This document shows positions 1,924 through 19,240 of a stretch of 20,066 nucleotides of DNA, piece by piece. Position 1 is the first letter of the stretch. Each line of letters opens with the position of its first letter. The DNA comes from a virus, in IMG/VR virus record IMGVR_UViG_3300009155_000347, positions 1 to 20,066 of that record; one strand, 5' to 3'. The position numbers and the translations under genes are program-made. Below the pieces are notes generated by a model. That model searched no databases. It saw nothing but the letters and a program-made list of their open reading frames with translations, and was not told where the DNA came from.

Positions 1924-2838
1924 TTATTCTCTGTAATAACGCTTATTTTTATTTGAATCTAATTCTTCAATCTCGTCTTGAAGTATTACTTTCTCTCTTG
2001 GGAACTTAACTTCAACAGCATTTTCTCTTCTAATAATTTTTGGTTTGTCTTCATTACTATCACCACCAATAAGTTTACCTAATACTTCTAGTGTAATCTT
2101 TGAACCATAAGTTTTTCTTTCTTCATTAAGGCTTAGGTAATTACTATCTTGTGTTATATCACCATTCATAAATGCTTCAAATCTATGATTTTCATTATGT
2201 AATATTATAGACCTTGTATTACCATTCTTTGTTAAAAACGGTGCCAATATTTCATTCATTTGTTGAACGTAATCTGTTTTAATAAATATTGAATATGTTA
2301 TAGTAACATGTATAGGTATAGGAATTGTTATTGTTTCGTATACTGTTTTGTTTCCAGAAATCACTCTTTGATCTCTTAATTCAAATAATCCTTTTTTATT
2401 ACCATTTCTTCTATTTCTTTCAATAGCTCTTCTAATATCTTCATTTGCTCCAACATATTTATTTAATGTTGCGTTCTCAAAATTAGATGTTTTTTCTTGT
2501 TGAATTGTTCTTGCTATTGTTATTGTTCCACCTTTTTCATCATTTATATTTCTTATATTTGCTGGGACAGAACCTTTTTTATTTACATCTTTATTCATCG
2601 AAGTTCTTTCAAGAGATATAATTGGGTATTTAATCATACCAGATGAATCACGAATGTCTTTATCTGCTTTAATTTGATGTGCTCTTTCTGCGGAAGTCCA
2701 TATAACAGGAACTTTCTTCCAACCTTCAGAAGTAGTAGCATGAACATTCATCTTTTCATTTAGCCAATTATAGACAGCAAAATCAACTGTTTCTATTGTT
2801 GAAGCTTCAAAAGTTATTTCTTGTGTTGTTTCGCTCAT
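1924..2838 (-). CDS. Tail terminator / sheath stabiliser (gp15-like)
   Basis: This is probably the protein that caps the tail tube and sheath and joins the tail to the head, as gp15 does in T4. Residues 40-80 read GWKKVPVIWTSAERA and then IRDSSGMIKYPIISLERTSM. This matches the gp15 pattern of a 'VPV.Y.S.E' strand followed by a 'LPRI.L' strand. Residues 172-202 (IPIPIHVTITYSIFIKTDY, then VQQMNEILAPFL) match the T4 segment containing 'YELSIFTRYEDD' and 'IVEQILPYF'. At 304 residues it is longer than T4 gp15 (272). A central charged stretch (about 85-165) looks like an insertion. It starts 5 nt after the gp13-like gene, with AGGAT inside that gene's 3' end as ribosome-binding site, so the two are probably co-translated. 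Its place between neck and sheath genes supports the call. Confidence 0.75.
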   Translation of the reverse strand: MSETTQEITFEASTIETVDFAVYNWLNEKMNVHATTSEGWKKVPVIWTSAERAHQIKADKDIRDSSGMIKYPIISLERTSMNKDVNKKGSVPANIRNINDEKGGTITIARTIQQEKTSNFENATLNKYVGANEDIRRAIERNRRNGNKKGLFELRDQRVISGNKTVYETITIPIPIHVTITYSIFIKTDYVQQMNEILAPFLTKNGNTRSIILHNENHRFEAFMNGDITQDSNYLSLNEERKTYGSKITLEVLGKLIGGDSNEDKPKIIRRENAVEVKFPREKVILQDEIEELDSNKNKRYYRE

Positions 2839-2843
2839 TTATA

Positions 2844-4133
2844 TCATCCTGCGTAAATAAGAACAGGAATCTTTTGAGAAACCTTTTGAACATCATCGGA
2901 CATTTTAGCTTCTGTTTCAGCAATCTTGTGATAAGTTACTTGATCAAGAATCTTATTTAATTCTTCTTTCAATTCTTTCTTTTCTTCTTTTGCTTCCGAC
3001 ATAAGTGCAGGACCATTTAAAGTAACAGAGTCACCTGGGATTGGTAATGTACTAAACTTGGATCTAACTTGTCCTAGCATTTCTTTACATACCGCTAAAG
3101 CATAACGACGTATCCACTGTTTACCTATTGCGTTTATATTCTCAAATGGTATATTGGAGAAGGGAAGTGTATTAATGTTATTAACCCCACCAGTTTCGGA
3201 GTCGCTTGAATTTGAAGGTGTTTCCCAAGGATTTGCTTCATTTGATATACTAAATTCAACCCACATATGATCTACACCTATATCACTTGGGCATGGATAT
3301 AATCTAACTTTATTATTTTTAATCTCATAAGAGAAGTGAGAGTTTCTTGTGTAGATTGCTGTTTCATAAGCCATAGCCTGTAATTTATTGTGCCATGTTG
3401 GGATTACTTCAAACGTGCTATCATCAGCATATTGACCATAAGATGATAAATTACCAATAGCATTTAAGCCGCCATAGTAACCAAAAAATCTCCACATAGA
3501 GTTTGGAGTTTTATAAAATACTTTTCTTATTATTACTCTTTTATTTCCAACTGAACCAGAGTAAGGTACAGGACCGCCACTTGCTTTATCTACGTTACTT
3601 AAAGAAGATGATTCAATAATAGCTTGTAAGTCATAATCTTGAACACTTGGGGTAACACTGAAGGAAGCTGAATATATTTGTTGTGTTGAGCCTATTCCAG
3701 CTTCAAGTGAAAAAGCATCACCATATCTTGAAAAATAATCTAAATTATATCTTGGATAAGCTAATTGTGGAGTTTGACCCGATAATGCTGAACCAGAAGT
3801 AAATTCTCCATCACTATTAAAGGTTCCTGTTGCTGCTCCAAGAAAAGTAGGCATAGCGTTAATTGCTTGATGTAAATTAACAATATAAGAGTATTCTAAT
3901 ACAGCTTCTTCATAAGCAGCGTATACATTTCCTGTTGTTATTTCAATATCTAATATATCACCACCAAGCTTTTTATATACATAACCAACTTGGTCTGCTG
4001 CTCCTGTTAAAAACGCTGGGGAGGAAGCATAAATACCAAAAGGTAAAGCTGCTGCTACATCTACCAGATTTCCTGCTGATGGTAATACAATAGCACTTAA
4101 AGTAGAAGCAGGAGTTAACGTAGGGACAGCCAT
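2844..4133 (-). CDS. Neck / head-completion protein (gp13-like)
   Basis: This 429-residue protein is probably a neck protein joining the filled head to the tail. The informative part is near residues 330-395: QWIRRYALAVCKEMLGQVRS, then a 'LPIPGDSVTLNG' loop and SEAKEEKKELKEELNKI. T4-type gp13 proteins have the same arrangement, with a 'W..RY..AL.K...G..L.KF' helix, an 'LPGG..LNG' loop and a charged 'EA..EI..L..EL' helix. The N-terminal two thirds are beta-rich and longer than in T4 gp13 (309 residues), and the middle is Tyr-, Ser- and Gly-rich. The gene follows the capsid terminator and has a ribosome-binding site AAGGAG 11 nt upstream. A baseplate or adaptor role cannot be excluded, but the gene lies directly upstream of the gp15-like gene, as expected for a neck component. 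Confidence 0.6.
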   Translation of the reverse strand: MAVPTLTPASTLSAIVLPSAGNLVDVAAALPFGIYASSPAFLTGAADQVGYVYKKLGGDILDIEITTGNVYAAYEEAVLEYSYIVNLHQAINAMPTFLGAATGTFNSDGEFTSGSALSGQTPQLAYPRYNLDYFSRYGDAFSLEAGIGSTQQIYSASFSVTPSVQDYDLQAIIESSSLSNVDKASGGPVPYSGSVGNKRVIIRKVFYKTPNSMWRFFGYYGGLNAIGNLSSYGQYADDSTFEVIPTWHNKLQAMAYETAIYTRNSHFSYEIKNNKVRLYPCPSDIGVDHMWVEFSISNEANPWETPSNSSDSETGGVNNINTLPFSNIPFENINAIGKQWIRRYALAVCKEMLGQVRSKFSTLPIPGDSVTLNGPALMSEAKEEKKELKEELNKILDQVTYHKIAETEAKMSDDVQKVSQKIPVLIYAG

Positions 4134-4233: not shown

Positions 4234-5997
4234 TCAAGAACCGCTTTCGCCAATAAGGCCACGGATAATGACCAAACCGTAAAGATCTGGTTTAACCATT
4301 TTCTTAGCGTAACGGGTCATTACACCTTTGCGTGGAACAAAGTCCTCAGTACCAAAGATGGTTGGAGTTACTTGGAGTGGGACGTATGGTGCATATACAT
4401 ATCCGCTTTCGAGGAATGAGCTGCCCTTACGACCAACGAGGATTACGTTACGAAGGAAGTATGGATCAACGTAAACGTCAAATTTCTTGGAGATTGAACC
4501 AACGTTAATTGCTCCAATTTCACCCTTCTCGTCTTCGTGAGTTACTTTAGCTCTAAAGCCAGATGTAAACTCAAGAACGTTTGCAGTTTCTGGACCACAT
4601 ACGATAAAGTTTGCACCACCGCGAAGTGTCTTTCTGTGGATTTGGGCTGATACATCATTAATTGTTTCAATCAAGGTTTCGTACCAAGCTGAGACAGTAC
4701 CAGTGAAATCTGGAGCTTTAGCTGATGCACCAATTTCGGCACCAGTTAATCTGTTTACGAACAAACCTGGTGATCTTGACCAGTAGAATGTTCCAGCAGT
4801 TGCACCTTTGATAAGGTCTTCAAGAATTTCACGATCAATTTCAAGACCGATTTGTTCTGAAAGAATTGAGGTAAGCTCAACCTCTGCATCAAGATTGTGA
4901 TAAGCATTAAGATCTTGACCAAGTTCTGGTGTCCATTTTGCTTTCATTTTCTTGGTTATAGCGGTGATTGATACTGAATCGACGGAGATATCGATCTCTG
5001 GTATTTCAGTTTGAGCCTCAAGACCCCAAGTATCTTGACCAGCAATTGCGCCAAGAGCGTTAGTTGAGCCAGCAGCAATATTAGTTGTGCCAAACTTATC
5101 AACTATTGGGAATTTAGCTATAACGCTTGCAGCTTGTGTACCAACAGAAGCATTAAGAGTATTTAATGAAGCGTCAGTATTGGCTGGTGCTGTAAATACA
5201 AGATAAGTTTTTCCATCATTTGCAGCGGTAGCAGTTGAACCAACAGTAATACCATTTCCAAATTGTGTTAATCTTCTAACTTGGCTACCACTAAGAAGTG
5301 ATGTGCTGTCTGCTACGATAGCAACCAAATTTCTCTTGTTAAGAGCAACAAACTCAGTATCAGTTACTACTGAAGCGACCAATACTCTGGTTGAACCAGA
5401 AACAAAATCTGCGTCAAAACGACAGAATTCGTCAATACCTTGTGTACCAGCACCAAATGTACCAGAAGCAACAACAGTAATTGTCATACCTGTATTTGAA
5501 CCAGTTGGTGAGGTATAGCCGTTATTAAGGTTATAGAAGCCTTTCTCAGCATTTACACCAGTTAAGCTAACACCACCAGTGATTTGTTGACCGAGAACGC
5601 CTTGACCGTAAACTGAATCATTTGCAGCATAACCTAATCTTGGACCAGATCCAGCAGTTGATGAAATCTTAAAGTCGAGGAAGAAGATAAGACCAGATGG
5701 AAGTGACATAGGTTGAACTGAAACGAGATCGTTGGCGATAAGACCAGCGAATACTCTGCGAACGATTGGGAATGCTACGGCAGCAAAACCTTCTACGTCA
5801 CCAGCAGCCATAGCTGAAGATTCGCGAAGAAGCTCTTTTGCTTGGTTCTCAAGAAGACGAGCCATAGTGTGTTTTGCTCTTTCTGTACGAATACCTTCTA
5901 AAAGACCTGTTCTTTCCCATTTATTAAGAAGGGCTGTTCCTTCTTTTGCGAGGTCACGTTGAACCATGCCCTCTGTTAATCTTTCGATAATAGACAT
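4234..5997 (-). CDS. Major capsid protein (gp23-like)
   Basis: This is the main shell subunit of the head. Residues 74-110 (VAFPIVRRVFAGLIANDLVS, then VQPMSLPSGLIFFLDF) are the conserved gp23 signature, equivalent to T4 'VRRAIPNLIAFDICGVQPM'. The C-terminal part also fits the family: FIVCGPETANVLE, then VYVDPYFLRNVILVGRKGSS and YAPYVPLQVTP. At 587 residues it exceeds T4 gp23 (521); a beta-rich, Gly/Thr/Ser-rich segment at about 155-300 looks like a surface insertion. Residues 1-70 are charged and helical, as in the cleaved gp23 propeptide. Glutamates that could be prohead-protease sites are E50, E59 and E69, and LRE at 57-59 best fits the T4 (I/L)-X-E rule. The ribosome-binding site AAGGAG is 8 nt before the ATG. 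The gene ends in a strong terminator, consistent with high expression. Confidence 0.95.
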   Translation of the reverse strand: MSIIERLTEGMVQRDLAKEGTALLNKWERTGLLEGIRTERAKHTMARLLENQAKELLRESSAMAAGDVEGFAAVAFPIVRRVFAGLIANDLVSVQPMSLPSGLIFFLDFKISSTAGSGPRLGYAANDSVYGQGVLGQQITGGVSLTGVNAEKGFYNLNNGYTSPTGSNTGMTITVVASGTFGAGTQGIDEFCRFDADFVSGSTRVLVASVVTDTEFVALNKRNLVAIVADSTSLLSGSQVRRLTQFGNGITVGSTATAANDGKTYLVFTAPANTDASLNTLNASVGTQAASVIAKFPIVDKFGTTNIAAGSTNALGAIAGQDTWGLEAQTEIPEIDISVDSVSITAITKKMKAKWTPELGQDLNAYHNLDAEVELTSILSEQIGLEIDREILEDLIKGATAGTFYWSRSPGLFVNRLTGAEIGASAKAPDFTGTVSAWYETLIETINDVSAQIHRKTLRGGANFIVCGPETANVLEFTSGFRAKVTHEDEKGEIGAINVGSISKKFDVYVDPYFLRNVILVGRKGSSFLESGYVYAPYVPLQVTPTIFGTEDFVPRKGVMTRYAKKMVKPDLYGLVIIRGLIGESGS

Positions 5998-6021: not shown

Positions 6022-7050
6022 TTATTTAATACCTGCTAAACGACGCATTCTTTCCACTTCTGGAGTTACTGTATCGTTTTGCTTTGTGTGAAATACAGAT
6101 GAAGAAGGTCTATTTAAGGCTTCGCTAAGTGATTTTGGAGCAGATACTTTTGTATTACCCCCCACTGTGCTTTGAAGTGTTTGATAGATTGTCTTTGCTT
6201 CGTCTGTTGTTTTTGCGTTAGATAGTGCTTCGACAAGTTTATCTTTTTGTCGCTCATTCAAGGAGTTACTATTCAATACGCGGTTTGTATAGAGAAGTTT
6301 AGCATTTGTTACGGATAACTTATCTAAGTTCTCTTTTAACTGTGATACTGCGCTCTCGTATTGTTCTACTTTATTTGCAAGTGCTTCAGTAATCTTTTCA
6401 AGTTTTTTATATTCAACTTGTAAACTTTTATTTTGTCTGGTAAGTTTTTTGTTTTCTTCAATCTTAGCTTCAACTTCTTCTTCTGCTTCAAGTTGAACTT
6501 TTTTGGCTGCTGCAATATCTTTTTGATATTCAACTTCTAATGTGTTGGCTGGATACTCAATATTACCATATGGAACTGTTCTAGCATCAACTGTAAGTTT
6601 TTCATAGAGATCTAAAAGTTCTCCTTTATCAATCTCATATTCTTCGCCTTCTTGAAGTTGTGCTGCTTGTGATTGGATAAATTGATCACGGGACATAGCA
6701 GAACCATTATTACCAGAAAGATCAATATTAGCTTCTTTGGCTATTCCATCAACATCGCCAACTGTTAAATCAATTGTAATTTGATCCCCATCTTCTGGGC
6801 AAGGACACATTTTTTGTCCGTCTTTATAAGCTTGGGTCATTTGATCGCCAACGTTTCCACCATTAATACCAGATGTTCCACCTTCCGACGCTACTGGAGA
6901 ATTAAAGCCTTCGTCTTGTTCTAATAAGCTTTTTATTGCGTCTTTTACTTCAGTTGAATATCTTTCTAATACTTGTGCTTCTGCATTCTTAAGTGCAGCT
7001 TCTTTTAATGCTGTGGCATCTATAATTGCTTGTTCTAACAAAGAAGACAT
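6022..7050 (-). CDS. Prohead core scaffold protein (gp22-like)
   Basis: This is the internal scaffold around which the capsid assembles; it is normally degraded by the prohead protease. The chosen ATG at 7050 begins MSSLLEQAIIDATALKEAAL and has GGAG nine nt upstream. An in-frame start at 7080 would lie upstream of that site and has no ribosome-binding site. From 7050 the protein is 342 residues. Residues about 155-265 are a long charged coiled coil, followed by NAKLLYTNRVLNSNSLNERQ and EALSNAKTTDEAKTIYQTLQ. I associate that segment with gp22 proteins of T4-like phages from marine cyanobacteria. The C-terminus is VERMRRLAGIK. An odd CPCP motif lies near residue 82. The gene sits 24 nt upstream of the capsid gene, as gp22 does in T4, and two CTATTTAT elements precede it. 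Confidence 0.88.
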   Translation of the reverse strand: MSSLLEQAIIDATALKEAALKNAEAQVLERYSTEVKDAIKSLLEQDEGFNSPVASEGGTSGINGGNVGDQMTQAYKDGQKMCPCPEDGDQITIDLTVGDVDGIAKEANIDLSGNNGSAMSRDQFIQSQAAQLQEGEEYEIDKGELLDLYEKLTVDARTVPYGNIEYPANTLEVEYQKDIAAAKKVQLEAEEEVEAKIEENKKLTRQNKSLQVEYKKLEKITEALANKVEQYESAVSQLKENLDKLSVTNAKLLYTNRVLNSNSLNERQKDKLVEALSNAKTTDEAKTIYQTLQSTVGGNTKVSAPKSLSEALNRPSSSVFHTKQNDTVTPEVERMRRLAGIK

Positions 7051-7064
7051 TAAGGAGTTCTCCA

Positions 7065-7071
7065 ATTTATA
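7065..7071 (-). promoter_or_regulatory. TATAAAT element before scaffold gene
   Basis: The minus strand reads TATAAATT just upstream of the GGAG ribosome-binding site of the scaffold gene. It differs in one base from the T4 late consensus TATAAATA. A similar element lies before the sheath gene, where it also follows a (C/T)TATTTAT element. The AT-rich context makes chance occurrence possible. Confidence 0.3.
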
Positions 7072-7082
7072 TGTAATCAAAA

Positions 7083-7263: not shown

Positions 7264-8556
7264 TTAGAATACCATCCATGCAGATCCGTCCCATACTAAG
7301 GAAATGGCTGCACCGTATGACTCAAGAACAACTTGGCTTAAGCCTTCGATTGTTCCACCAACTTGTGGAACAATTATTACTGATGCAGTAGGATCGGCAG
7401 CATAGCACTTAATTCTGTGCTCTTGACCAACTGCTGGTCCAACTGGGAGATTAAGAGTGATATTTGCTGTAGCTTTAATAACGTTATCACCACTTAGGAT
7501 TGTATAATTTTCTGCTTTTGGTACAACATTAAGTTGCATCGAACCTACGAGGTTACCGTAGAATGATGTAGCCTTAACTGCTGGTGCAACTAATGGAAGT
7601 GATGAAGAAAGAACGTTTTCAGCACTACCACTACTATCAATATTAACTTCAGCAGTTAATAATGTTGCGTGACCAACGTGTGAACCAAAGTCGATACCAA
7701 CGTCAGTAGCAAAAGCAGTTGAGCCAGAAGCCATAAGGATTCTTGCATCTTTAATCTCAAGGTTTGTAGCGTTAACTGTGGTTAAAGTACCAGTTATATT
7801 GAGGTTTTCCATCGTAACTTGACCAGTGAAGGTTAAATTCTTGGAGATTGTGCTTGGAAGGCTTACTGTAGCAGTTCCACCAAGAGCTAATGGTGAACCA
7901 ACTACTGTAACTTCGCCAGCAGTTCCGTTGATTGTTACTGAGCTGCTAGCCAACATAGCATTTGTAATTCCACTATTTGGAACAGAAAATATACCAGTAG
8001 CAGGAACATAACTAAGACCAGAACCAGGACCAAAACGTCCTCTAACCCAACTTTCATCAACTTGTAAACCACTTGCATTCTTTAGAAGAGATGCACCAGT
8101 AAGCTCAAGTGAGAATTGACCAGTTGCAGAAGCATATTCGATACCTTGACCATCGGCACTAAAGTGTGCTCTTGCTTCGGCAGCAGATGGGCCTGTGTAA
8201 GTGAATACACCAGAACCAGAATTATAAGTAAGTGAACCATCACCACCAGCATCAGTTACGGATACTGCGGTTCTTGCTCTTGAATCTAAGTAGTATTTGT
8301 TGGTTGAACCTTCAGTTACTGCATCAGTTCCAAATGAGCCAGATTCGCCAAGTGCTACTGTTACACCGTTAAACTTTACTGTGTTGTTAACAAGTTTATC
8401 GTTTGTTATACCACCAGAAAGTTCGGTATTATTGATTACGCCAGCGTCAAGGTCTACATCACCATTAACGATAAGACCACCTTGTGAAGTAATTACTTGT
8501 GCTGTTTCGATTGAACCAGAAAGTTTTGCTTTACCTAATTGAAATTTATAAGCCAT
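7264..8556 (-). CDS. Fibre-like virion protein, 430 aa
   Basis: This is a Gly/Ser/Thr/Val-rich beta protein, probably a trimeric fibre or surface appendage. The N-terminus MAYKFQLGKAKLSGS resembles that of the 373-aa neighbour (MAYKFSVGAYQHSGS). Residues about 80-200 contain NKYYLDSRAR, DGSLTYNSGSGVFTYTGPS and a second G-LSYVPATGIFSV unit, a repeat type I associate with large structural proteins of marine phages. A middle unit (TNLEIKDARILMASGST) is shared with the 373-aa protein. The C-terminal 80 residues form the domain common to five proteins here: a 'L.LP.....G....IK' strand, then 'GGTIEGL' and a final DGSAWMVF. The ribosome-binding site TAGGAG lies just after a hairpin and T-run. A strong terminator follows. 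The receptor and exact position on the virion are unknown. Confidence 0.75.
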   Translation of the reverse strand: MAYKFQLGKAKLSGSIETAQVITSQGGLIVNGDVDLDAGVINNTELSGGITNDKLVNNTVKFNGVTVALGESGSFGTDAVTEGSTNKYYLDSRARTAVSVTDAGGDGSLTYNSGSGVFTYTGPSAAEARAHFSADGQGIEYASATGQFSLELTGASLLKNASGLQVDESWVRGRFGPGSGLSYVPATGIFSVPNSGITNAMLASSSVTINGTAGEVTVVGSPLALGGTATVSLPSTISKNLTFTGQVTMENLNITGTLTTVNATNLEIKDARILMASGSTAFATDVGIDFGSHVGHATLLTAEVNIDSSGSAENVLSSSLPLVAPAVKATSFYGNLVGSMQLNVVPKAENYTILSGDNVIKATANITLNLPVGPAVGQEHRIKCYAADPTASVIIVPQVGGTIEGLSQVVLESYGAAISLVWDGSAWMVF

Positions 8557-8689: not shown

Positions 8690-9100
8690 TTAATAGATAA
8701 ACCATTTGTTAAATCCGTCTGTATAAAGATTTAATGAAGCATAAGGTGAGTCAATTGTAAAGGTATCTTCTCCGTCTACTCTGTCACCATTTAAAGTATC
8801 AATTATTATTGGATAAGTATCGGCCATTCCACCTTCATCTTTTATAATATAAGTTCTTCCATTAACAGAACCAGAAGCGTTTGGTAAGGTCAAAGTAATG
8901 CTACAAGCTGCATTTTCGGTATGAACTCCAATAAAATATTCTGTTCTTTTAATGTTATAAGAAGAAGATATAATAGTTCTATTGATTATTAATCCATCTA
9001 TTTTTAATAAAGTTGATTCAAGAAGATCAGCTTTAATAGTATTTGTTACTTCTTGATCTCCTACCATTTTAGGTATAGATTTATATGTTTTATATCCCAT
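8690..9100 (-). CDS. Small fibre-tip-like protein, 136 aa
   Basis: This protein consists of a short N-terminus (MGYKTYKSIPKMVGDQ) followed by the shared C-terminal beta domain. Residues about 35-136 read IDGLIINRTIISSS, FIGVHTENAACSITLTLPNA, GRTYIIKDEGGMAD, DRVDGEDTFTIDSPYASLNL and a final NKWFIY. It is closest to the end of the 444-aa neighbour (IIVNRTSTSSS, LSLPNAS, YVIKDEGGKAD, SPYAALNIYCDG, KYFIY). I chose the ATG at 9100 because it forms a TAATG overlap with the preceding stop, as at two other junctions in this window. An ATG at 9115, inside the preceding gene, is the alternative and would add five residues; neither has a strong ribosome-binding site. It is probably a trimeric virion protein carrying only the tip domain. 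Confidence 0.72.
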   Translation of the reverse strand: MGYKTYKSIPKMVGDQEVTNTIKADLLESTLLKIDGLIINRTIISSSYNIKRTEYFIGVHTENAACSITLTLPNASGSVNGRTYIIKDEGGMADTYPIIIDTLNGDRVDGEDTFTIDSPYASLNLYTDGFNKWFIY

Positions 9101-10149
9101 TAGAACAAATTCCATCCATTTGAAGCTTTATACAAACTTATTGAACCGTGGTCTACATCAATTTTAACGTATGGTTCCAAATCTATATATTGACCGGAAG
9201 AAGCGGATACCGTAATTGGCCGTATTGTAGTGGCTAATCCAGTTATATCTTTAACATGTATTACTCTTCCGTTTGTTGTTGAAGCTAAAGTTGGTAGTGA
9301 TACTATTATACCAGAGTAGGTACTATCAACACCAATAAAATAATCATCACTTACAACTGAATAACTTGATGTAATTAAAATTGTTTTATTTGTTATCGCT
9401 GAACTTGATAAAGTAATTTGTGAACCATTAACTAACAAAGTTCCACTTATAGAAACAGAACCAGTAATTATTACATTATCTCCTGCTGAATCTCCAAGAT
9501 ATGTGTTCCCACCAACAGTTAAATTGTTTACTACTGTTAAATTATTAAACGAATAGTTGTTTGAATAGTTTGCTTGTGGAGATGAACCAGTTGAAGTAGA
9601 TGTTGTAGCTCTTGTCGTTGGAACTGTATTAGCAACAAATTGAGGATTAAATAAACCTTCTCTTGCTCTTATACATTTAGCCATTACTTCAAATTTGTTT
9701 TCTATCTGCCCAAATAATTGTTTTGGTTCATCAAGTTTAACAATTTCATAATATCTATCACCATATAAAACAAAATCACCTTCACGAACAAAAACATCTT
9801 GATCTTCTGTTAGACGTTTTTTGTGAAAGTGAATTTCTATTGATGTTGCTTTATCAATACCAATATTTTGTGTGAAGGATTGTGTTTGACCTTCCCATTT
9901 AACCAAAGCATAAATTCTTATTGGAGGAAGATAAGTTTTTTCTATTGCTTCCCCATAAAGAGGATGGAAGTTAGAACGATCAATATCTACTGAGAAATAC
10001 GCTACCTGTTGACCAATAACTCTTTCAATAAGTTCGTCATTAACTTGCTTAACAAGATTACGCTCCTTCTCTCCTGTAAATAAGGGAGGAGGAGGTTGAG
10101 CGGGCTGCGTCCAAGCAGTTTCTTCTTTTTTCTTTCTAGGTCTTGCCAT
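9100..10149 (-). CDS. gp14-like neck protein fused to a fibre domain, 349 aa
   Basis: This looks like a two-part virion protein. Residues 25-170 resemble T4 neck protein gp14. 'FHPLYGEAIEKTYLPP' (61-76) matches T4 'LIFGEDLKNKF', 'IGIDKATSIEIHF' (96-108) matches 'FGMQVQDEVTLSI', and 'REGDFVLYGDRYYEIVKLDE' (122-141) with LFGQ matches '[20 protein letters not shown]' with 'YQLGQ'. A Ser/Thr/Asn-rich linker (173-200) leads to a fibre part (NNLTVVNNLTVGGNTYLGDS, then VIITGSVSISGTLLVNGSQI). The C-terminus is a divergent copy of the shared beta domain (YFIGVDSTYSG, HVKDITGLATT, ending NGWNLF). The N-terminus MARPRKKKEE is basic. No Shine-Dalgarno sequence is visible; instead CTATTTAT lies 5-12 nt before the ATG. 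The fusion suggests an appendage anchored at the neck, comparable in position to T4 whiskers. The gp14 match is from memory of the T4 sequence. Confidence 0.65.
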   Translation of the reverse strand: MARPRKKKEETAWTQPAQPPPPLFTGEKERNLVKQVNDELIERVIGQQVAYFSVDIDRSNFHPLYGEAIEKTYLPPIRIYALVKWEGQTQSFTQNIGIDKATSIEIHFHKKRLTEDQDVFVREGDFVLYGDRYYEIVKLDEPKQLFGQIENKFEVMAKCIRAREGLFNPQFVANTVPTTRATTSTSTGSSPQANYSNNYSFNNLTVVNNLTVGGNTYLGDSAGDNVIITGSVSISGTLLVNGSQITLSSSAITNKTILITSSYSVVSDDYFIGVDSTYSGIIVSLPTLASTTNGRVIHVKDITGLATTIRPITVSASSGQYIDLEPYVKIDVDHGSISLYKASNGWNLF

Positions 10150-10171: not shown

Positions 10172-10705
10172 TTAAAAACCTTTAGTTACTACATTATAAA
10201 AAACTTTGCCAGTAACATTAGTAGTTTTGCCGATTGTTGCTGTTGAATGGTTAAATGTCATAACATCACCACCACCGTTCTCCCCATATTGAATTCTAAT
10301 TGGATAAGAAGTGTTAGCAGTAAGTGAAATTGTACCAGACACTTCTTGTGGTCCGTGAAGACCAGCATTATTGACTGTTGCGTTTGCTGTTGTAAAACCA
10401 GAAACCGCATTAGTTCCAATCCACATAAAAGAGGCATCGTCCGAACTTAAAAAGAACGTATATGTTTCAGTAGTCGTAGGAACAAAATATCCTAACCACT
10501 GCATACTAAAACTATTGCCGTCTTCTGAGTTTGGCTCTTCAATTACAGTTGTTTGAACTAATGTTGCAGTTGGAGTAGCCGTAGCAAAAAAAGAAGGAAC
10601 GTCAGCAAAATAACCAGAATAAGTAGTTCTATATAATCCAGCGGCTAAAGAACTTACTGGATTATAAGAAATTGGTCCTGCAAAAGATGAAATTCTGCTA
10701 ATCAT
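10172..10705 (-). CDS. Stand-alone PA14/GLEYA-type carbohydrate-binding protein
   Basis: This 177-residue protein is almost entirely one PA14/GLEYA-like beta-sandwich. Residues 23-35 (GLYRTTYSGYFAD) form the first strand. SMQWLGYFVPTTTETYTFFL (67-86) and SSDDASFMWIG (87-97) are the core, with the adjacent Asp pair D89-D90 and W95 typical of the family. NNAGLH (112-117) and SYPIRIQYGENGGGDVMTFN (133-152) match the 'YPIRI.Y.NGGG' end. In PA14-type adhesins the Asp pair helps bind calcium and sugar. No signal peptide or membrane segment is present, so it is probably a virion protein that binds host surface glycans. It lies 4 nt after the 189-aa fibre gene and just before the neck-fibre fusion gene. 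The fold call is confident; sugar binding is inferred from the family. Confidence 0.82.
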   Translation of the reverse strand: MISRISSFAGPISYNPVSSLAAGLYRTTYSGYFADVPSFFATATPTATLVQTTVIEEPNSEDGNSFSMQWLGYFVPTTTETYTFFLSSDDASFMWIGTNAVSGFTTANATVNNAGLHGPQEVSGTISLTANTSYPIRIQYGENGGGDVMTFNHSTATIGKTTNVTGKVFYNVVTKGF

Positions 10706-10709
10706 AATT

Positions 10710-11279
10710 TTATCCGTATGTACTCATTTGACCAAGAGTGATCCAAGTGCTGCCAGAACGTATAAGTGAGAAACCAAATATATCATATTGGTTTGCATTT
10801 CCAGTTGGTTTTATTTTGTTAGCCCAATTAATTGTTGAAGAAGTAGAATTAATTTGTAATGCTTCAACGATCCTAGCTGTTGCACTTTGAGACATAACTA
10901 TTGTAACAGATGTAGTTCTGCTAGTAGTTGTTGGAACATTTGTAAAGTTTGCTGTTATATTACCAGTTGGTCCACTATTATAGAAAACTGAATTGACTAA
11001 TGTATCATAGGTAACAGATCCAGTTCCACCAGAAGAAATTGTTAATTTTTCGGATGTTGTTCCAAGTATGAATTGTGCTCCTGCACTTATATCTCCACTT
11101 ACAGCGAAAGATCCAGTTACAGATACTCCTACTTTTGTAACAGATAAAACTGTACTTCCACTTGTTACTAAATCAATTTGATCATCGCCAAAATCAATTT
11201 TTGTGTTTAATTGTGGGTCTTGTACGGAAATTAAATCTCCAATTATTTGTGAGCCAGTTCCAAAATAATTATATGCCAT
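10710..11279 (-). CDS. Short fibre-like virion protein, 189 aa
   Basis: This is a beta-rich Ser/Thr/Gly protein. The N-terminus MAYNYFGTGSQIIGDL recalls the MAYKF starts of the neighbouring fibre proteins. Residues 22-68 (LNTKIDFGDDQIDLVTSGST, then VTKVGVSVTGSFAVSGDISA) form a repeat type that I associate with fibres of marine phages. The C-terminal part (NSTSSTINWANKIKPTGNAN, ending GFSLIRSGSTWITLGQMSTYG with a 'SGSTW' near the end) is not the same domain as in the other fibres but has a comparable 'GSTW' finish. It is separated from the PA14-type gene by 4 nt, so the two products may be partners, for example shaft and adhesin. It is the first gene after a strong terminator and a CTATTTAT element. 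Function is inferred from composition and position. Confidence 0.65.
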   Translation of the reverse strand: MAYNYFGTGSQIIGDLISVQDPQLNTKIDFGDDQIDLVTSGSTVLSVTKVGVSVTGSFAVSGDISAGAQFILGTTSEKLTISSGGTGSVTYDTLVNSVFYNSGPTGNITANFTNVPTTTSRTTSVTIVMSQSATARIVEALQINSTSSTINWANKIKPTGNANQYDIFGFSLIRSGSTWITLGQMSTYG

Positions 11280-11403: not shown

Positions 11404-12525
11404 TTAGAAAACGTGCCAGTTAGTTCCGTCACATGCGAATGTTGCGGCAGCATATTGAGTTCCTAGTGTAACACCAGTTGCTGCTGCGACACCATCAATT
11501 GTTCCACCAAGGGATTTAACAAATACTAATTTTGTTCCTACATTTTTAACTTTGTAAGTAAGACCAATAAAACTTGGTCCTGCTGCTGGTAAGTTTGCAG
11601 TAATATCAGCAGCAGTTGAATCTGCAAGTGTTATAAATTTTGAAATATTAATTGTAGCGGTTGAAGCAGATTCTATTGACTCGACTATCTTGGTATTAAG
11701 AAGAGACGTTCCAGTGATATTACCTGCTGTAAAATCTGTAAAGCCTGTTGAACCGCTGAATTGCCAAGAATCACCAACAGTACCCATAGAACCACTTACA
11801 AATTTAAGTTGATAACCAGTATTACCAAGAGTAAGACCAGCACCATTTACTTGTGCGCTTGTTGTTGATCCAGATGCAAGAATTAGATTTACATCTTTGA
11901 ATTCTACAACAGATGAACTTACATAAGTAATATTTCCATTAACAGTTAAATTACCATTTAGGGTTGTTGCACCAGCTACAGTAAGTGCTCCACCAACTTG
12001 TAAAGTTGATGAAGCTGAAAGAGTTGTAGCAGTTGTAGCTTGGGCATTTAATGTTTGAAGTGTTGAAGTTCCAACAACATCAAGCGTAGAAGAAGCACTT
12101 AGTGTTGTAAATTTACCACTAGATTGAGTAGATGCACCAATTGTAGTAGCATTTATTGTACCACCATTAATTTGAAATAGGGAACCAGTAATTTGACCAT
12201 TTACAGTAATAACATCTGCTGGAGCGTCACCAAGAGCTACGTTACCACTTAGAGTTGTGACACCAGTAACAGTTAGTGTTGTTGTACTAATGTTTGCTGG
12301 GCTAAATGTTCCAACTGTTAATGTTCCAAAGTTTGCTGTTGAAGCAGACATATTTGAAGATGCTGTTATATTTGTTGAACTAATATTTGCTGGACTGAAT
12401 GATGCTACTGTTAATGTACCGAAATTACCTACAGCACCAGAAACTGTAGTTGAACCTGTAATGTCTACTGTTGCTTGTAGAGAACCAGAGTGTTGGTATG
12501 CTCCTACTGAAAATTTATAAGCCAT
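11404..12525 (-). CDS. Fibre-like virion protein, 373 aa
   Basis: This is a Ser/Thr/Gly/Ala-rich beta protein, probably a trimeric fibre. It starts MAYKFSVGAYQHSGS, like the 430-aa protein. Residues 34-49 (NFGTLTVASFSPANIS) are repeated at 65-80 (NFGTLTVGTFSPANIS), a 31-residue direct repeat. Further units of the type 'TLSASSTL.V.G' follow. The segment EFKDVNLILASGSTT near residue 214 parallels LEIKDARILMASGST in the 430-aa protein. The C-terminal 85 residues form the shared beta domain (INISKFITLADSTAADITAN, YKVKNVG, GGTIDGV, ending DGTNWHVF). The start has a TAGGAG ribosome-binding site in a leader almost identical to that of the 430-aa gene. A strong terminator follows. Receptor and exact location on the virion are unknown. 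Confidence 0.72.
   Translation of the reverse strand: MAYKFSVGAYQHSGSLQATVDITGSTTVSGAVGNFGTLTVASFSPANISSTNITASSNMSASTANFGTLTVGTFSPANISTTTLTVTGVTTLSGNVALGDAPADVITVNGQITGSLFQINGGTINATTIGASTQSSGKFTTLSASSTLDVVGTSTLQTLNAQATTATTLSASSTLQVGGALTVAGATTLNGNLTVNGNITYVSSSVVEFKDVNLILASGSTTSAQVNGAGLTLGNTGYQLKFVSGSMGTVGDSWQFSGSTGFTDFTAGNITGTSLLNTKIVESIESASTATINISKFITLADSTAADITANLPAAGPSFIGLTYKVKNVGTKLVFVKSLGGTIDGVAAATGVTLGTQYAAATFACDGTNWHVF
12286..12426 (-). repeat. 31-codon direct repeat inside the 373-aa fibre gene
   Basis: Two copies, 12379-12426 and 12286-12333, are offset by exactly 93 nt and encode NFGTLTV(AS/GT)FSPANIS. The bases have diverged at several silent and non-silent positions. This suggests an older tandem duplication of one beta-repeat unit rather than a recent one. 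Confidence 0.8.
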
Positions 12526-12614: not shown

Positions 12615-13949
12615 TTAATAGATGAAATACTTGCTTGTTCCATCGCAATATATATTTAATGCTGCGTAAGGTGAATTTGCTGTAACAGAACTTGCACCAT
12701 CTATAGTTTGACCAAAGACAGAACAACTTACTATAATATTTTTACTATCAGCTTTTCCACCTTCATCTTTTATTACATAATGTTTTCCACTAGGTAATGT
12801 TGAAGCATTTGGTAAAGATAGAGTTACGCTTCCAACAGCACCAGAAGTATTAACTGCTATTATATGTTGTATGGAAGTTAAAGAAATACTAGAAGAAGTG
12901 CTAGTTCTATTAACGATAATTGTATCAAATTTTCCAATACTTGCAGTTAAAGCACTACCACTAAAAGTTAAACCGGAAGAACCAGTTAAAGTTCCTGTGT
13001 TTCCATTTTTAAATTGAATAGTCCAATCGTCACCAACTCCATTAACCTTAGCACCATCAATACCAGTTATATTATTTCCATCACCTCTAAGGGAACTAGC
13101 AGACATAATACCTATTACAGTTAGGCTACCAGTAATAGTAGAACTACCAGTTACTGTTAAACCATTTTTAATAATAGCAAAATTATTTATTGTTAGATTT
13201 GTTCCTGCTGTAATATCACCAGCAGTTTGTAGATTGGCTGAAGCTGATACAGAACCAGTTACAGTAACAGTTCCTCCAAAAGAACCACCACCAGATATTT
13301 GTAATCCAGAACCATTTATATTACCAGAACTTGAAATTGGTCCATTTATTATGGCTGACGTAGCAGTTATCTCTCCTGTTTTTATATTAACAGAAGAAGA
13401 AATAGCGGAAGAAGATAAGGTAGTTATATAACCAGTTCTCCAAAATCTTGATGAAGCACCAAGATCTACGTCATTTGTTGTTGCTGGTTGAATATTTGTT
13501 TTTGAACTAGCATTAAAATAAACTTCATCACTTAAAGAAGTTCCTAATTGGACGTAATCTAAAAATGATGCTGATGTTGCTGTTATTGTGTTTGTTGCTG
13601 TTAATGAACCAGATACTAACGTTGTTCCAGTTAAGGATAAAATATTTGTTGTATAATCAAAAGTTAAATTTGATTTACCAGCAAATGTAGAACCAGAATT
13701 ATATTGTAAATGTGTATTAGAGCCACCTGGACTTGTACTGCCTCCACCGCTACCAGAAACACCAAGATAATTTGATGCAGATATTGTTCCAACTACTGTT
13801 AAAATGTTTGTTGATGGATTAAAAGTAAAATTACTCGATCCAGAAAAAACACCAGAACCAGAATTAAACTGGACAGAATTGGTTGGACCAGCAGCAGCAG
13901 CCGATCCAGTTATAATACCGTTTACATAAGCCCAACCAAATCTACTCAT
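12615..13949 (-). CDS. Fibre-like virion protein, 444 aa
   Basis: This is the longest fibre candidate, rich in Ser, Thr, Gly and Asn. The N-terminus MSRFGWAYVNGIITGSAAAA is followed by two related units, SVQFNSGSGVFSGSSNFTF and HLQYNSGSTFAGKSNLTFD, each leading into a 'T.ILT(V/L)(V/T)GT' strand. Similar 'N.L.YNS.SG...G' units occur in phage tail fibres. Residues about 150-175 (SKTNIQPATTNDVDLGASSR then FWRTGYI) form another known fibre-type unit (DLG..S.RF...Y). A string of 'TGSLTV' and 'ISSSGNI' strands follows. The C-terminal 90 residues are the shared beta domain and are closest to the 136-aa protein. The ATG lies 1 nt after the preceding stop (TAAAATG), with TAGGAT as ribosome-binding site, so it is probably translated together with the 144-aa gene. 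It may be an upstream member of the fibre set. Confidence 0.72.
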   Translation of the reverse strand: MSRFGWAYVNGIITGSAAAAGPTNSVQFNSGSGVFSGSSNFTFNPSTNILTVVGTISASNYLGVSGSGGGSTSPGGSNTHLQYNSGSTFAGKSNLTFDYTTNILSLTGTTLVSGSLTATNTITATSASFLDYVQLGTSLSDEVYFNASSKTNIQPATTNDVDLGASSRFWRTGYITTLSSSAISSSVNIKTGEITATSAIINGPISSSGNINGSGLQISGGGSFGGTVTVTGSVSASANLQTAGDITAGTNLTINNFAIIKNGLTVTGSSTITGSLTVIGIMSASSLRGDGNNITGIDGAKVNGVGDDWTIQFKNGNTGTLTGSSGLTFSGSALTASIGKFDTIIVNRTSTSSSISLTSIQHIIAVNTSGAVGSVTLSLPNASTLPSGKHYVIKDEGGKADSKNIIVSCSVFGQTIDGASSVTANSPYAALNIYCDGTSKYFIY

Positions 13950-14387: not shown

Positions 14388-14669
14388 TTAATCTTCCCTT
14401 CTTTTATTGTTATCTACACGTTTATTATAATTAGCTTCCTTTGCTAATTCTTTCTTTCTTTTATCTGCTTCAAATTTCTTCCATCTAGCAATTCCAGCAA
14501 GTTTTTCTTTCTTTTTGGTAACAGATGGTTTCTCATAATATCTTCTATCTTTAACTTGCTCGATAACTCTTTCTTTTTTTACTTTCTTTAAAAATCTCTT
14601 CACCATTCTTTCAAAAGGTTCGCCTTTCTTTGGGACTACTTTTGCGTGAAGATTCTTACTCTTAGACAT
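14388..14669 (-). CDS. rpsU: Phage-encoded ribosomal protein bS21
   Basis: This is a homologue of small-subunit ribosomal protein bS21, which sits near the 3' end of 16S rRNA and helps start translation. From the ATG at 14669 it is 93 residues. Residues 16-50 carry the family core GEPFERMVKRFLKKV, RVIEQVKDRRYYEKPS and TKKKEK. This parallels E. coli 'NEPFDVALRRFKRSCEK', 'VLAEVRRREFYEKPT' and 'ERKRAK'. The C-terminal third is a Lys/Arg-rich helix, as in cellular bS21. E. coli bS21 is 71 residues; this one is longer at both ends. I chose the ATG rather than the GTG at 14675 because GAGAGG is 5 nt upstream. The ATG overlaps the end of the preceding gene by 8 nt, so translation is probably coupled. 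Phage-borne bS21 is known from aquatic phages, including Pelagibacter phage HTVC008M. Confidence 0.9.
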   Translation of the reverse strand: MSKSKNLHAKVVPKKGEPFERMVKRFLKKVKKERVIEQVKDRRYYEKPSVTKKKEKLAGIARWKKFEADKRKKELAKEANYNKRVDNNKRRED

Positions 14670-15549
14670 AAACACCTCTCAATTCGTTTATTCTTTGTCT
14701 TAATTTATTAACTTTATTTTCTTGAAGCTGCTTTCCAATATATCTTTCCATATCTATCGCTTGTGCTGCATCAAACATTTTTTTAGGTATTTTTACATTA
14801 CCTAAATTATTACCTACTAATTGACTTAATTCTGATCCTCTTTGTATTTTATCATCCCAATAACCTAACTTCATAGGATCAAATAAATAATATGTATTTC
14901 CTTGTTCGTCTTTTTTGATTTTTGAGTTTTGAAAAGCTTCTTTATAATTTTCTCTAGCACTTAATAAAAATCCATTAGCTAAAGCAAATTCAATCGAAAG
15001 TTTGGGAGAAGATGTACCAAAATGTGAAGCAGCAGCAACAGCTTCGCTTCTACCTACATTTTCAGCGTGTTTCATAAAATCAAATGCAAGAATCTTATAA
15101 AGTGTTTCATCATTTAATATTTCGCCAAGTTTATTGTTAATAAATTTTATTTTTTCTTTTTCAAAATTTGGCTCTTTTTCCTCATGTGATGAATCAAATT
15201 CCTTTGCTGCTCCCACAAACACTCTGCTAACAATTTCTCTTGCATAATCTTCATTAGCACCTTTTGTTACTAACTTGACTATAATTTGTTCTGCTTTATC
15301 AAATATCTGCTGATCAACTTCAATTACTTCTTCGTCTTCTTCTTCTTGTGTATCTTTTAATTCTTCCATTTCTTCAACAGCTTGCTCTGCTTGTGCTGTT
15401 GGCTCTTTTATTAAATATTGAAGACCAGCAGCAGCAAGTCCACCAAGAACACCAAGAGTTATGTTTTTTAACATACCTTCTTGAATAAGATAATTTCTTA
15501 ATTCTTCTCTTATAACTTGTCTTACTTGTGCTTCTGTTAATCTTTTCAT
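14662..15549 (-). CDS. Putative internal head protein with N-terminal targeting helix, 295 aa
   Basis: I do not recognise a named family. The ATG at 15549 is chosen because it forms an ATGA overlap with the preceding stop; the longer frame would need a TTG at 15564. The protein then begins MKRLTEAQVRQVIREELRNY, a short charged helix shared in type with two nearby proteins. IQE (22-24) followed by G fits the T4 prohead-protease rule (I/L)-X-E. A hydrophobic helix follows immediately (about 28-46: NITLGVLGGLAAAGLQYLI). Next comes a very acidic stretch (about 55-78, EEEDEEV), then a mostly helical domain (GANEDYAREIVSRVF, SEAVAAASHFGTSS, IEFALANGFLL). This layout would suit a protein packaged in the prohead and matured by the protease, perhaps then ejected. 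Its position next to protease and scaffold-like genes supports this, but it is inference. Confidence 0.6.
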   Translation of the reverse strand: MKRLTEAQVRQVIREELRNYLIQEGMLKNITLGVLGGLAAAGLQYLIKEPTAQAEQAVEEMEELKDTQEEEDEEVIEVDQQIFDKAEQIIVKLVTKGANEDYAREIVSRVFVGAAKEFDSSHEEKEPNFEKEKIKFINNKLGEILNDETLYKILAFDFMKHAENVGRSEAVAAASHFGTSSPKLSIEFALANGFLLSARENYKEAFQNSKIKKDEQGNTYYLFDPMKLGYWDDKIQRGSELSQLVGNNLGNVKIPKKMFDAAQAIDMERYIGKQLQENKVNKLRQRINELRGVYV

Positions 15550-16374: not shown

Positions 16375-16968
16375 TTATTTTAAAATATCTTTGATAAGAT
16401 TTGAAACTCTTGCTTGTTTATTTTCGTTTACATTTCCTTTTCTCTCTTGAAACATAAATGCTCCATGAGTTGAAGGCTCCGAAACAATATCAAAACAAAT
16501 TAATTGGAAATCATCTTCTACGATTGTCTCTCCTCTGCTTTCTCTAACAGATCCAGTTCCTCTTGAAGAAATACCAATTTTAACATTAGCGTTAACTAAC
16601 TCTCTTAATACTTGACCAGATGGTGTATTGAGAACTTGAATTTTACCCATTACATCTTTTCCATTCCACCATACTTCTACTACAAGATGTGAAACGTTTT
16701 TAAGATTAATTACTGATAGGTCTGGATGATCCAGTTCTCCAAGTGCTCTTCTTTCTTGAACAAGTTGTTTGTATGTATCCATTTCTCTCGATAAAACAGA
16801 ATGAGGATAAATTCTTCCATTTCCATTTCTCGCATCTGCTCTTTGAATTACACCAGATAACATCATGCCACCATTTTTAATAAAATGTTTATCGGACTCT
16901 GTAAGTATGTCTTCGCAGATCCCATCGGGGCATAGTTCAAAAAATTCTCTTAATAGCGGTTTGGACAT
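16375..16968 (-). CDS. Prohead core protease (gp21-like, serine protease)
   Basis: This is the assembly protease that cleaves scaffold, capsid and internal proteins during head maturation. At 197 residues it is close to T4 gp21 (212). The fold markers are clear: GMMLSGVIQRADARNGNGRI (34-53), YPHSVLSREM (54-63), then GELDHPD (77-83) with the probable catalytic His81. KIGISSRGTGSV (130-141) holds the probable nucleophile Ser135, and ICFDIVSEPS (157-166) a probable Asp160. This His-Ser pair with a 'GISSRG' loop is the pattern of T4-type (S80) and related prohead proteases. AGGAA lies 8-9 nt before the ATG, and the preceding gene ends 16 nt upstream. The last 25 residues are basic and helical and may be removed by self-cleavage. 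Target sites are expected to follow the (I/L)-X-E rule known from T4. Confidence 0.93.
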   Translation of the reverse strand: MSKPLLREFFELCPDGICEDILTESDKHFIKNGGMMLSGVIQRADARNGNGRIYPHSVLSREMDTYKQLVQERRALGELDHPDLSVINLKNVSHLVVEVWWNGKDVMGKIQVLNTPSGQVLRELVNANVKIGISSRGTGSVRESRGETIVEDDFQLICFDIVSEPSTHGAFMFQERKGNVNENKQARVSNLIKDILK

Positions 16969-18437: not shown

Positions 18438-19240
18438 TAAACAAGTTCCTTAACTAACTGTTGTAATTTCAATACTTTCTCAACCATAGCTGGAGTTACT
18501 TGTGTTGTTTTAAAAGCTTCAAGAATATTTAGTAATCCTTCTTTTTCTTTACTCTCCGTGATTTGTTTAGATAATAAAACTACTTGTCTTATTCTTCCAA
18601 TCTCTTCGTTAAGATACATTTTAAAATCAATATCGTCATTTGAATAAGAAGCGATGTATTTGGTAAGAAGTTCTTTTTGTTCTTCCATCAAAGAGGTTCC
18701 ATACTTGTCGTTGAATTTCTTTACGAATTCTTTATAAACAAGGCTATCAATTGGTTTAAGGTTATTTTGTGCGTTGTCTTCTGTAGATAATCTATCAATC
18801 AAATATTGTTCTAAAATAACTCTTGTCTTCATAGGAATTTCATTATCAAAGATTTGAGCTATTGTTGCTAGGTCTTTGTAGTTAGACATAAAGTTTGTAA
18901 AGACAGAAGGATTTACTTTTTTATTTACATCATTTATAATTCTGGTTTGTTGATTGAAAATATCTTGAGGCATAAAAGTAGCATACATTCTTTTTGCTTC
19001 ATTCAACATTCTATTGGCTGTATCTTTATTAAGACCTCTTGTTTCATAAAGAGATTTATAAACATCTAATTCTTTTGATAGTATTGAACCTTTTTTAAAG
19101 TGTTCTTTAATAACAGACATAATAATTTGTTTTGTTTTCTCATCTTTATTTACAATTGCCTTAGTTAATTCTTTTGTTAATGACTCAAAAAGAAAAGCTG
19201 TATTTCTTTTCTTATTGTGTTTGAGTTTAAGTTTTTCCAT
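18437..19240 (-). CDS. Helical protein following the portal gene, 267 aa
   Basis: This is an all-helical, charged protein without cysteines or membrane segments. It begins MEKLKLKHNKKRNTAFLFES then LTKELTKAIVNKD. I recall similar N-termini ('KLK.....NT..LFE.LT..') in uncharacterised proteins of marine T4-like phages, usually near the portal, but I cannot name a function. Regularly spaced helices continue to the end (ILSKELDVYKSLYETRGLNK, DTANRMLNEAKRMYATF, and a final MVEKVLKLQQLVKELV). The ATG lies inside the last codons of the portal gene (14-nt overlap), with GGAG ten nt upstream, so the two are coupled. A head-assembly chaperone or core component is possible but unproven. Confidence 0.6.
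   Translation of the reverse strand: MEKLKLKHNKKRNTAFLFESLTKELTKAIVNKDEKTKQIIMSVIKEHFKKGSILSKELDVYKSLYETRGLNKDTANRMLNEAKRMYATFMPQDIFNQQTRIINDVNKKVNPSVFTNFMSNYKDLATIAQIFDNEIPMKTRVILEQYLIDRLSTEDNAQNNLKPIDSLVYKEFVKKFNDKYGTSLMEEQKELLTKYIASYSNDDIDFKMYLNEEIGRIRQVVLLSKQITESKEKEGLLNILEAFKTTQVTPAMVEKVLKLQQLVKELV

Follow-up and report, generated by a model that had tools for sequence, protein, structure and literature searches.

How does a fibre come to lie on the same polypeptide as a protein that closes a phage head, and what might it do there? The question is raised by a virus record of 20,066 bases, referred to here as the window, whose minus strand carries a T4-type head gene set and, among its fibre genes, one gene in which a domain resembling T4 gp14 is followed by a fibre (Table 1). 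We think it fairly likely that the product is a gp14-type head-closure protein, probably the only one of the phage, whose gene has moved from the slot between gp13 and gp15 into the fibre cluster and been joined to a neck fibre that contacts the host. Between the fibre cluster and the gp23 gene lies an open reading frame (6022-7080) whose product has no family match and is labelled a putative scaffold from its place before gp23.

Table 1. The fused gene, its parts and neighbouring features of the window.
Feature	Coordinates	Strand	Basis
gp15-like tail sheath stabiliser; gap of 5 nt to the gp13-like gene (vacated gp14 slot)	1924..2838	-	homologues
gp13-like neck adaptor (Ad2)	2844..4133	-	phrog_211 head-tail adaptor Ad2, E 6e-12
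Major capsid protein gp23	4234..5997	-	PF07068, E 2.8e-71
Neighbouring fibre, same tip domain	7264..8556	-	HMM E 3.9e-5
141-aa gene, same tip domain, proposed partner, 16-nt overlap with the fused gene	8690..9115	-	overlap and covariation of distances
Fused gene: gp14 (head closure/stopper) domain plus fibre, 349 aa	9100..10149	-	open reading frame; 14 further distinct complete fused relatives
C-terminal tip domain, predicted XD1 fold, residues 253-349	9103..9393	-	pLDDT 89-97 per ten-residue block; structural matches
Beta-rich fibre shaft, residues ~191-252	9394..9579	-	strands only predicted, pLDDT mostly 62-73; spanned by the Pa223 capsid spike alignment
Ser/Thr-rich linker, residues ~170-190 (NPQF..NTVPTTR..TSTSTG)	9580..9642	-	sequence; C-half model, pLDDT about 40
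gp14-like domain, residues ~25-169	9643..10077	-	AF2 model, Foldseek, hhalign, gp13-gp14-gp15 synteny of relatives
Neighbouring fibre, same tip domain	11404..12525	-	HMM E 7e-8, second model only
Neighbouring fibre, same tip domain	12615..13949	-	HMM E 7.8e-18
Prohead protease gp21	16375..16968	-	PF03420, E 3.5e-27

The frame is open throughout its 349 codons and includes all of the gp14-like motifs named in an earlier, sequence-only reading of this DNA: LYGE (residues 64-67), IGIDKATSIEI (96-106), EGDFVLYGDRYYEI (123-136) and LFGQ (145-148). An accident of assembly or sequencing is ruled out, since 15 distinct complete fused proteins, that of the window included, occur among the matches listed, each on a different contig, and since both halves show the marks of purifying selection. 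In nine pairs chosen by hand among 10 loci, dN/dS ranges from 0.19 to 0.40 for the fibre half (nine of nine pairs) and is at most 0.115 for the gp14 domain, below 0.41 in either case. Judged from these ratios, the fibre half is under purifying selection.

The likeness of residues ~25-169 to T4 gp14, which the sequence-only reading had proposed from the motifs, was borne out by structure, profile and gene position. An AF2 model of residues 1-176 (54 rows; mean pLDDT 71, pTM 0.58) has T4 gp14 (9mkb_0) as its first Foldseek match in the PDB (E 2.8e-6, probability 1.00, 17% identity over 160 columns), and no other family matched better. The entries at ranks 2-19 bear titles of neck, connector, portal-connector or stopper structures, four of them further T4 neck entries, together with one gene-transfer-agent virion. 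With a second aligner (VIA) the neck of phage 812 reached Z 9.9 (rmsd 7.9, 155 aligned) and T4 gp14 (9lu4_M) Z 8.5 (rmsd 6.1, 117 aligned), the latter at rank 14 and below other neck proteins; baseplate or tip proteins of related fold scored lower (9j1k, Z 7.5; 6v8i, Z 7.4). Alignment by hhalign of 54 relatives with nine T4-like gp14 sequences gave a score of 37.2 (E 7.7e-5, probability 61.8, 128 columns) with the motifs collinear, against at most 27.6 for 200 column shuffles, 15.5 for the reversed control and 11.1 for the fibre half. When the alignment was broadened to include a distant Microcystis-phage outgroup, the score was 34.1 and the probability dropped to 42.7.

Direct family searches were less telling. 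PF11649 had no match in the window protein (E<=1), in 10 relatives (E<=10), in genome G001 or in the control genomes. The PHROG profiles for Hc2 matched a few of the 54 rows (phrog_460, 4 of 54, best 0.0013; phrog_679, 2 of 54, best 0.0028), and neither matched the window protein. The family HMM A1 did not find gp14 of T4 or of P-SSM3; searched against PDB sequences it gave just a chance-level match to myosin, and phmmer with the whole protein gave none. The following points stand against the assignment: no sequence profile labels the window protein as gp14 and the model of its N-terminal domain is of moderate quality; and the gp14 fold is common to other stopper proteins and, less closely, to some baseplate or tip proteins. 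Taken together, the fold, the collinear motifs and the gene position indicate that the N-terminal domain is a distant homologue of T4 gp14 (Hc2).

The evidence from gene position comes from the best 80 of at least 597 relatives of the N-terminal domain in viral contigs, to which three other queries added further loci (the best 80 or fewer each); all counts describe the resulting sample. Among the matches listed, 234 loci with a gp14 match represent 161 distinct proteins, 139 of which are encoded where gp14 lies in T4, no more than 300 nt after gp13 or before gp15. Nearly all of these (136) are short, and three carry a different extension. The remainder comprise 15 that have moved and have a complete fibre, one cut by a contig end (L005), two that have moved and have no fibre (L004 and L011) and four unclassified. 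Unfused relatives are mostly of 161-166 aa (68 of 76 proteins among the matches listed), ending about where the T4 arm would start. In Microcystis phage Mel-JY01 the unfused relative precedes sheath and tube and is flanked by a gp13-like protein (phrog_211, E 2.6e-16) on one side and a 333-aa gene on the other. The three canonically placed genes with an extension of ~100 aa unlike the fibre are L162:4164-4973, L145:4812-5603 and L146:4816-5607.

In the fused clade the gp14 slot is empty: gp13 and gp15 are 1-10 nt apart wherever both are present, which among the matches listed is in 13 fused cases. The gp15 label of the downstream gene of the window derives from matches of its homologues, the window protein itself having no significant family match: L067 scores 25.5 bits with PF16724 (T4-gp15_tss, cut-off 25) and also matches phrog_227, tail sheath stabilizer (E 0.0039), L014 (24.0) and L018 (18.8) fall below the cut-off, and the corresponding genes of L037, L003 and L083 have no PF16724 match. 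The fused gene itself, as had been remarked from the sequence, sits in the fibre cluster, about 5 kb from the gp13-like gene. The same reading had called for a search for a second, unfused gp14; in each of eight fused records, chosen by hand and none of them certified complete, only the fused gene was matched. One of the eight, a contig of 184,352 bases, has a single match to the gp14 profile, which is the fused gene, with a C-terminal half 90% identical.

In a tree of 85 gp14 domains the 16 moved rows group together as a single clade (100/99) that excludes the canonical rows. The two fibre-less members are nested with fused ones: L004 is sister to the fused L003, and L011 to the fused L008 and L009. 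L004 retains the first part of the linker, followed by DNA that corresponds to the spacer preceding the scaffold gene in L003, and L011 has only four residues, a small remnant, past the gp14 domain. Relocation first and fusion later, an order suggested by L004 and L011, was considered and set aside; both are nested among fused rows and L004 joins the linker straight to the pre-scaffold spacer, so that loss of the fibre is the simpler reading. The most economical history has a single move, a single fusion and subsequent fibre losses, in which an ancestral gp14 gene would have left the gp13-gp15 slot for the fibre cluster and gained a fibre there; alternatively, there may have been several separate fusions. 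Since both L004 and L011 are without it, the fibre is dispensable in these two lineages. A scan of genome contigs added three loci in MAG records, at 59-69% identity.

At the other end of the protein, a model of the C-terminal half (residues 176-349, 26 rows) has a mean pLDDT of 78, the tip being its best-predicted part (89-97). The tip superimposes on residues 79-175 of CBA120 TSP4 (Z 13.2, 92 aa, rmsd 1.7) and matches the C-terminus of tailspike Solidus_gp83 (Z 11.8), T4 gp10 (Z 11.2; the chain in 5iv5 was assigned by its length of 602 residues) and T4 gp9 (Z 10.4), as well as the bacterial structures 6o38 (Z 9.5) and 4dny (StcE, Z 8.0). In the model, therefore, the C-terminal tip has the XD1 fold of T4 gp9 and gp10 and of tailspikes. 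A published account identifies structure 6o38 as the metalloprotease CpaA, calls the domains of CpaA and StcE that match glycan-binding, and describes XD1 in TSP4, gp10 and gp9 as a trimer that appears to act as a spacer (PMC8825819); given this spacer role, the tip might not bind a receptor.

The C-terminal domain had been said to recur in four neighbours, and two HMMs run on the 22 window proteins recovered it in four. An HMM built from 15 fused rows matched the 141-aa gene (E 1.9e-27) and the fibres at 12615-13949 and 7264-8556; a second, which includes the partner rows and 12615-13949 itself, added 11404-12525. The reversed control, run for the second HMM only, gave no match, and neither search found the domain in 10710-11279. 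In the 184-kb relative the tip domain (E<=0.01) occurs at four places, all within the stretch of 158.9-164.0 kb that holds the fused gene. Upstream of the fused gene, at a distance of 22 nt, 10172-10705 (minus strand) encodes a 177-aa protein with GLEYA and PA14 domains (E 4.3e-21 and 5.1e-15), perhaps a sugar-binding module of the fibre cluster, and just upstream of the fused gene of another record (L006:7566-9974) is an 802-aa fibre-like protein that contains a Peptidase_S74 domain of the endosialidase-chaperone type (E 6e-9).

The overlapping 141-aa gene appears to travel with the tip. The 16-nt overlap is present in 10 of the 15 complete fused cases among the matches listed; in the other five the next fibre-like gene lies 8-118 nt downstream. 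Across 10 loci, distances between tips correlate with those between partners (r 0.86, Mantel p 1e-4, a value resting on related loci that include near copies), whereas those of the gp14 domain do not track the tip (r 0.15, p 0.14). Among 66 pairs of 12 loci, L097 and L102 share 98.8% DNA identity in the gp14 domain and 67.7% in the tip, and the reverse holds for L098 and L009 (73.3% and 97.7%). Compared in blocks of 150 columns, L097 and L101 show an identity of 0.93-1.00 along the initial ~734 nt of the fused gene, which drops to 0.51-0.71 over the tip and the next gene; beyond, it rises to 0.96 in one block and is lower again across the following fibre gene. These patterns indicate, at the sequence level, that tips are repeatedly exchanged between phages together with the overlapping gene, in the manner of host-range adhesins. 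Such joint exchange could come from physical linkage alone; it would also suit two cooperating parts, as a pattern compatible with contact between them and not a proof of it.

How the fused protein might be built into the virion can be drawn from T4, where gp14 is described as a hexamer beneath the gp13 dodecamer whose loops close the DNA channel, with C-terminal residues 178-256 disordered until bound to gp15 in the virion (PMC12270204, a preprint). By analogy, the gp14 domain would assemble as a hexameric ring, with the gp13 ring on one side and gp15 on the other, and its C-terminus, a flexible arm that in T4 comes to rest on gp15, would instead take the fibre outwards through the Ser/Thr-rich linker. 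Six fibre chains would thus leave the ring near the neck-tail junction, probably as a direct tether between the fibre and the DNA gate of the virion. Their XD1-type tips would trimerise, either among themselves, in which case each ring would bear two homotrimers, or in mixed trimers that include the 141-aa partner. Neck fibres of this kind would touch the surface of the host or serve to hold other fibres, the tip being replaced as host or receptor changes. A neck-anchored fibre that touches host surfaces is in our view the most likely arrangement, both the anchoring and the adhesion being inferred. One feature of T4 speaks against it: the fibritin whiskers dock there on domain III of gp13 rather than on gp14 (PMC12270204, preprint). 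Since gp14 forms the DNA gate, it is also conceivable, though quite improbable, that a receptor-reading fibre covalently joined to it relays pull or twist to the genome gate, as a second, neck-side ejection trigger or a safety lock besides the baseplate.

Three other readings of the same protein compete with this one. The fused tail might play a structural part, as a whisker or collar component comparable to T4 fibritin, and hold or assemble other neck fibres without binding the host. T4 whiskers are indeed located at the neck, the XD1 domains of TSP4, gp10 and gp9 are reported as trimeric and apparent spacers (PMC8825819), and the cluster also contains the other fibres that share this tip domain; in the 184-kb relative the domain (E<=0.01) is confined to the stretch around the fused gene. 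Against this, the tip swaps are recent and frequent, whereas C-terminal swapping of fibritin is reported to be ancient; in the same account the gp37/gp38 adhesins are the frequently shuffled parts (PMC3797505). As rapid exchange of the tip resembles these adhesins and not fibritin, we prefer, with moderate confidence, a role in host contact to a purely structural whisker, which we consider unlikely.

At the N-terminus, the gp14-fold domain could in principle be a baseplate tail-fibre adaptor, the true gp14 being encoded elsewhere. The gene does stand among fibre genes, and the same barrel fold occurs in the baseplate or tip proteins 9j1k and 6v8i; yet T4 gp14 is the first Foldseek match, unfused orthologues hold the T4 gp14 position, the slot between gp13 and gp15 is vacant in every fused case with both genes, and all eight fused records searched have a single gp14-like gene, all of which makes an adaptor very improbable. 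We attach equally little weight to removal of the fibre by proteolysis or to separate start sites, by which a plain gp14 would be assembled and the fibre would act elsewhere. The long flexible linker between the halves would allow it, and L004 and L011 suggest that gp14 is functional without the fibre; on the other side, a single frame is kept in all 15 complete proteins. The cleavage motif of T4 gp21-type proteases is (I/L)-X-E, and by eye the linker contains no such site. We retain, as the likeliest reading, a gp14-type protein that carries a host-contacting neck fibre.

Compared with T4 gp14 and the Hc2 families (PF11649, phrog_460 and phrog_679), the proteins studied here share the fold, the order of the motifs and, in unfused relatives, the gp13-gp15 position. 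The fused ones differ in that the C-terminal arm of ~80 aa, which in T4 binds gp15 (PMC12270204, preprint), is replaced by linker, shaft and XD1 tip, and in that the gene has moved. Extended gp14 proteins are found elsewhere. The sequence-only reading had contrasted the fusion with gp14 as a plain neck protein; this stands for T4, whose whiskers are a separate fibritin, and does not hold universally, since all ten cyanophage gp14s examined among the matches listed exceed the 256 aa of T4, with the excess at the C-terminus. Their annotated lengths (from CDS coordinates) are 292, 308, 355, 390, 390, 390, 415, 492, 657 and 762 aa; they represent all ten cyanophages among 40 of 2,327 matching records. 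Like the fused protein, the longest, from the Kyanoviridae S-SSM7 (762 aa, L093:2704-4992), S-CAM9 (657 aa, L094:2440-4413) and ACG-2014f (492 aa, L095:2017-3495), have a gp14 domain (PF11649, E 1.1e-23 to 1.9e-33) that continues into a large C-terminal extension. They are nevertheless encoded at the canonical gp13-gp14-gp15 place and have, by eye, G-x-G-Y..PP-type repeats and no XD1-tipped fibre. One of the three scanned, that of S-SSM7, includes a Laminin_G_3-like stretch (E 7.6e-6) whose 26.6 bits fall just below the cut-off of 27.6.

With extended gp14 recurring in cyanophage records, the fusion is not new in kind; new are the relocated gene, the different type of fibre, the swappable tip and the coupled partner. 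Among the open-access (PMC) papers listed, no title or abstract opening described a gp14-fibre fusion or a C-terminally extended gp14. Neck fibres, spikes or appendages are known as T4 fibritin (wac) whiskers, XM1 gp40 collar spikes and phi29 gp12 appendages, which are separate proteins in the accounts available, T4 fibritin docking on gp13 (PMC12270204, preprint; PMC10491603). Here, in contrast, a core head-tail connector and a fast-evolving fibre form one chain, a design that would fix the neck anchor genetically and offer a natural test of the part played by neck fibres in host recognition. Fibritin_C (PF07921) had no match in the window protein (E<=1) or in G001, and none over the cut-off in 14 control genomes. 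XD1 is likewise known from CBA120 TSP4 and T4 gp9/gp10, which are baseplate or tailspike proteins and have it internally, unlike the C-terminal domain here. A likeness that spans both shaft and tip is that to the capsid spike of Pseudomonas phage Pa223 (9ny6), whose C-terminal residues 145-289 align with them (Z 10.5, 117 aa, rmsd 3.4); it is named a capsid spike in the PDB title, and a literature search listed no paper on this structure. The cyanophage extensions suggest that the C-terminus of gp14 has repeatedly served T4-like phages as a platform for extra modules, a platform which labels such as neck protein or head closure Hc2 hide, and the fused clade illustrates that a gene held in gp13-gp14-gp15 order in most sampled relatives can leave that order.

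Two further genes of the window deserve mention. Within the head gene block, 14388-14675 (minus strand) encodes ribosomal protein S21 (PF01165, E 3.4e-12), which is likewise annotated in Mel-JY01, two genes past the prohead protease. Near the end of the window, 19227-20045 (minus strand) encodes a protein with a long Gly/Pro-rich stretch of low complexity, about 90 residues of which resemble part of proteins of 658 and 650 aa in L006 and L007.
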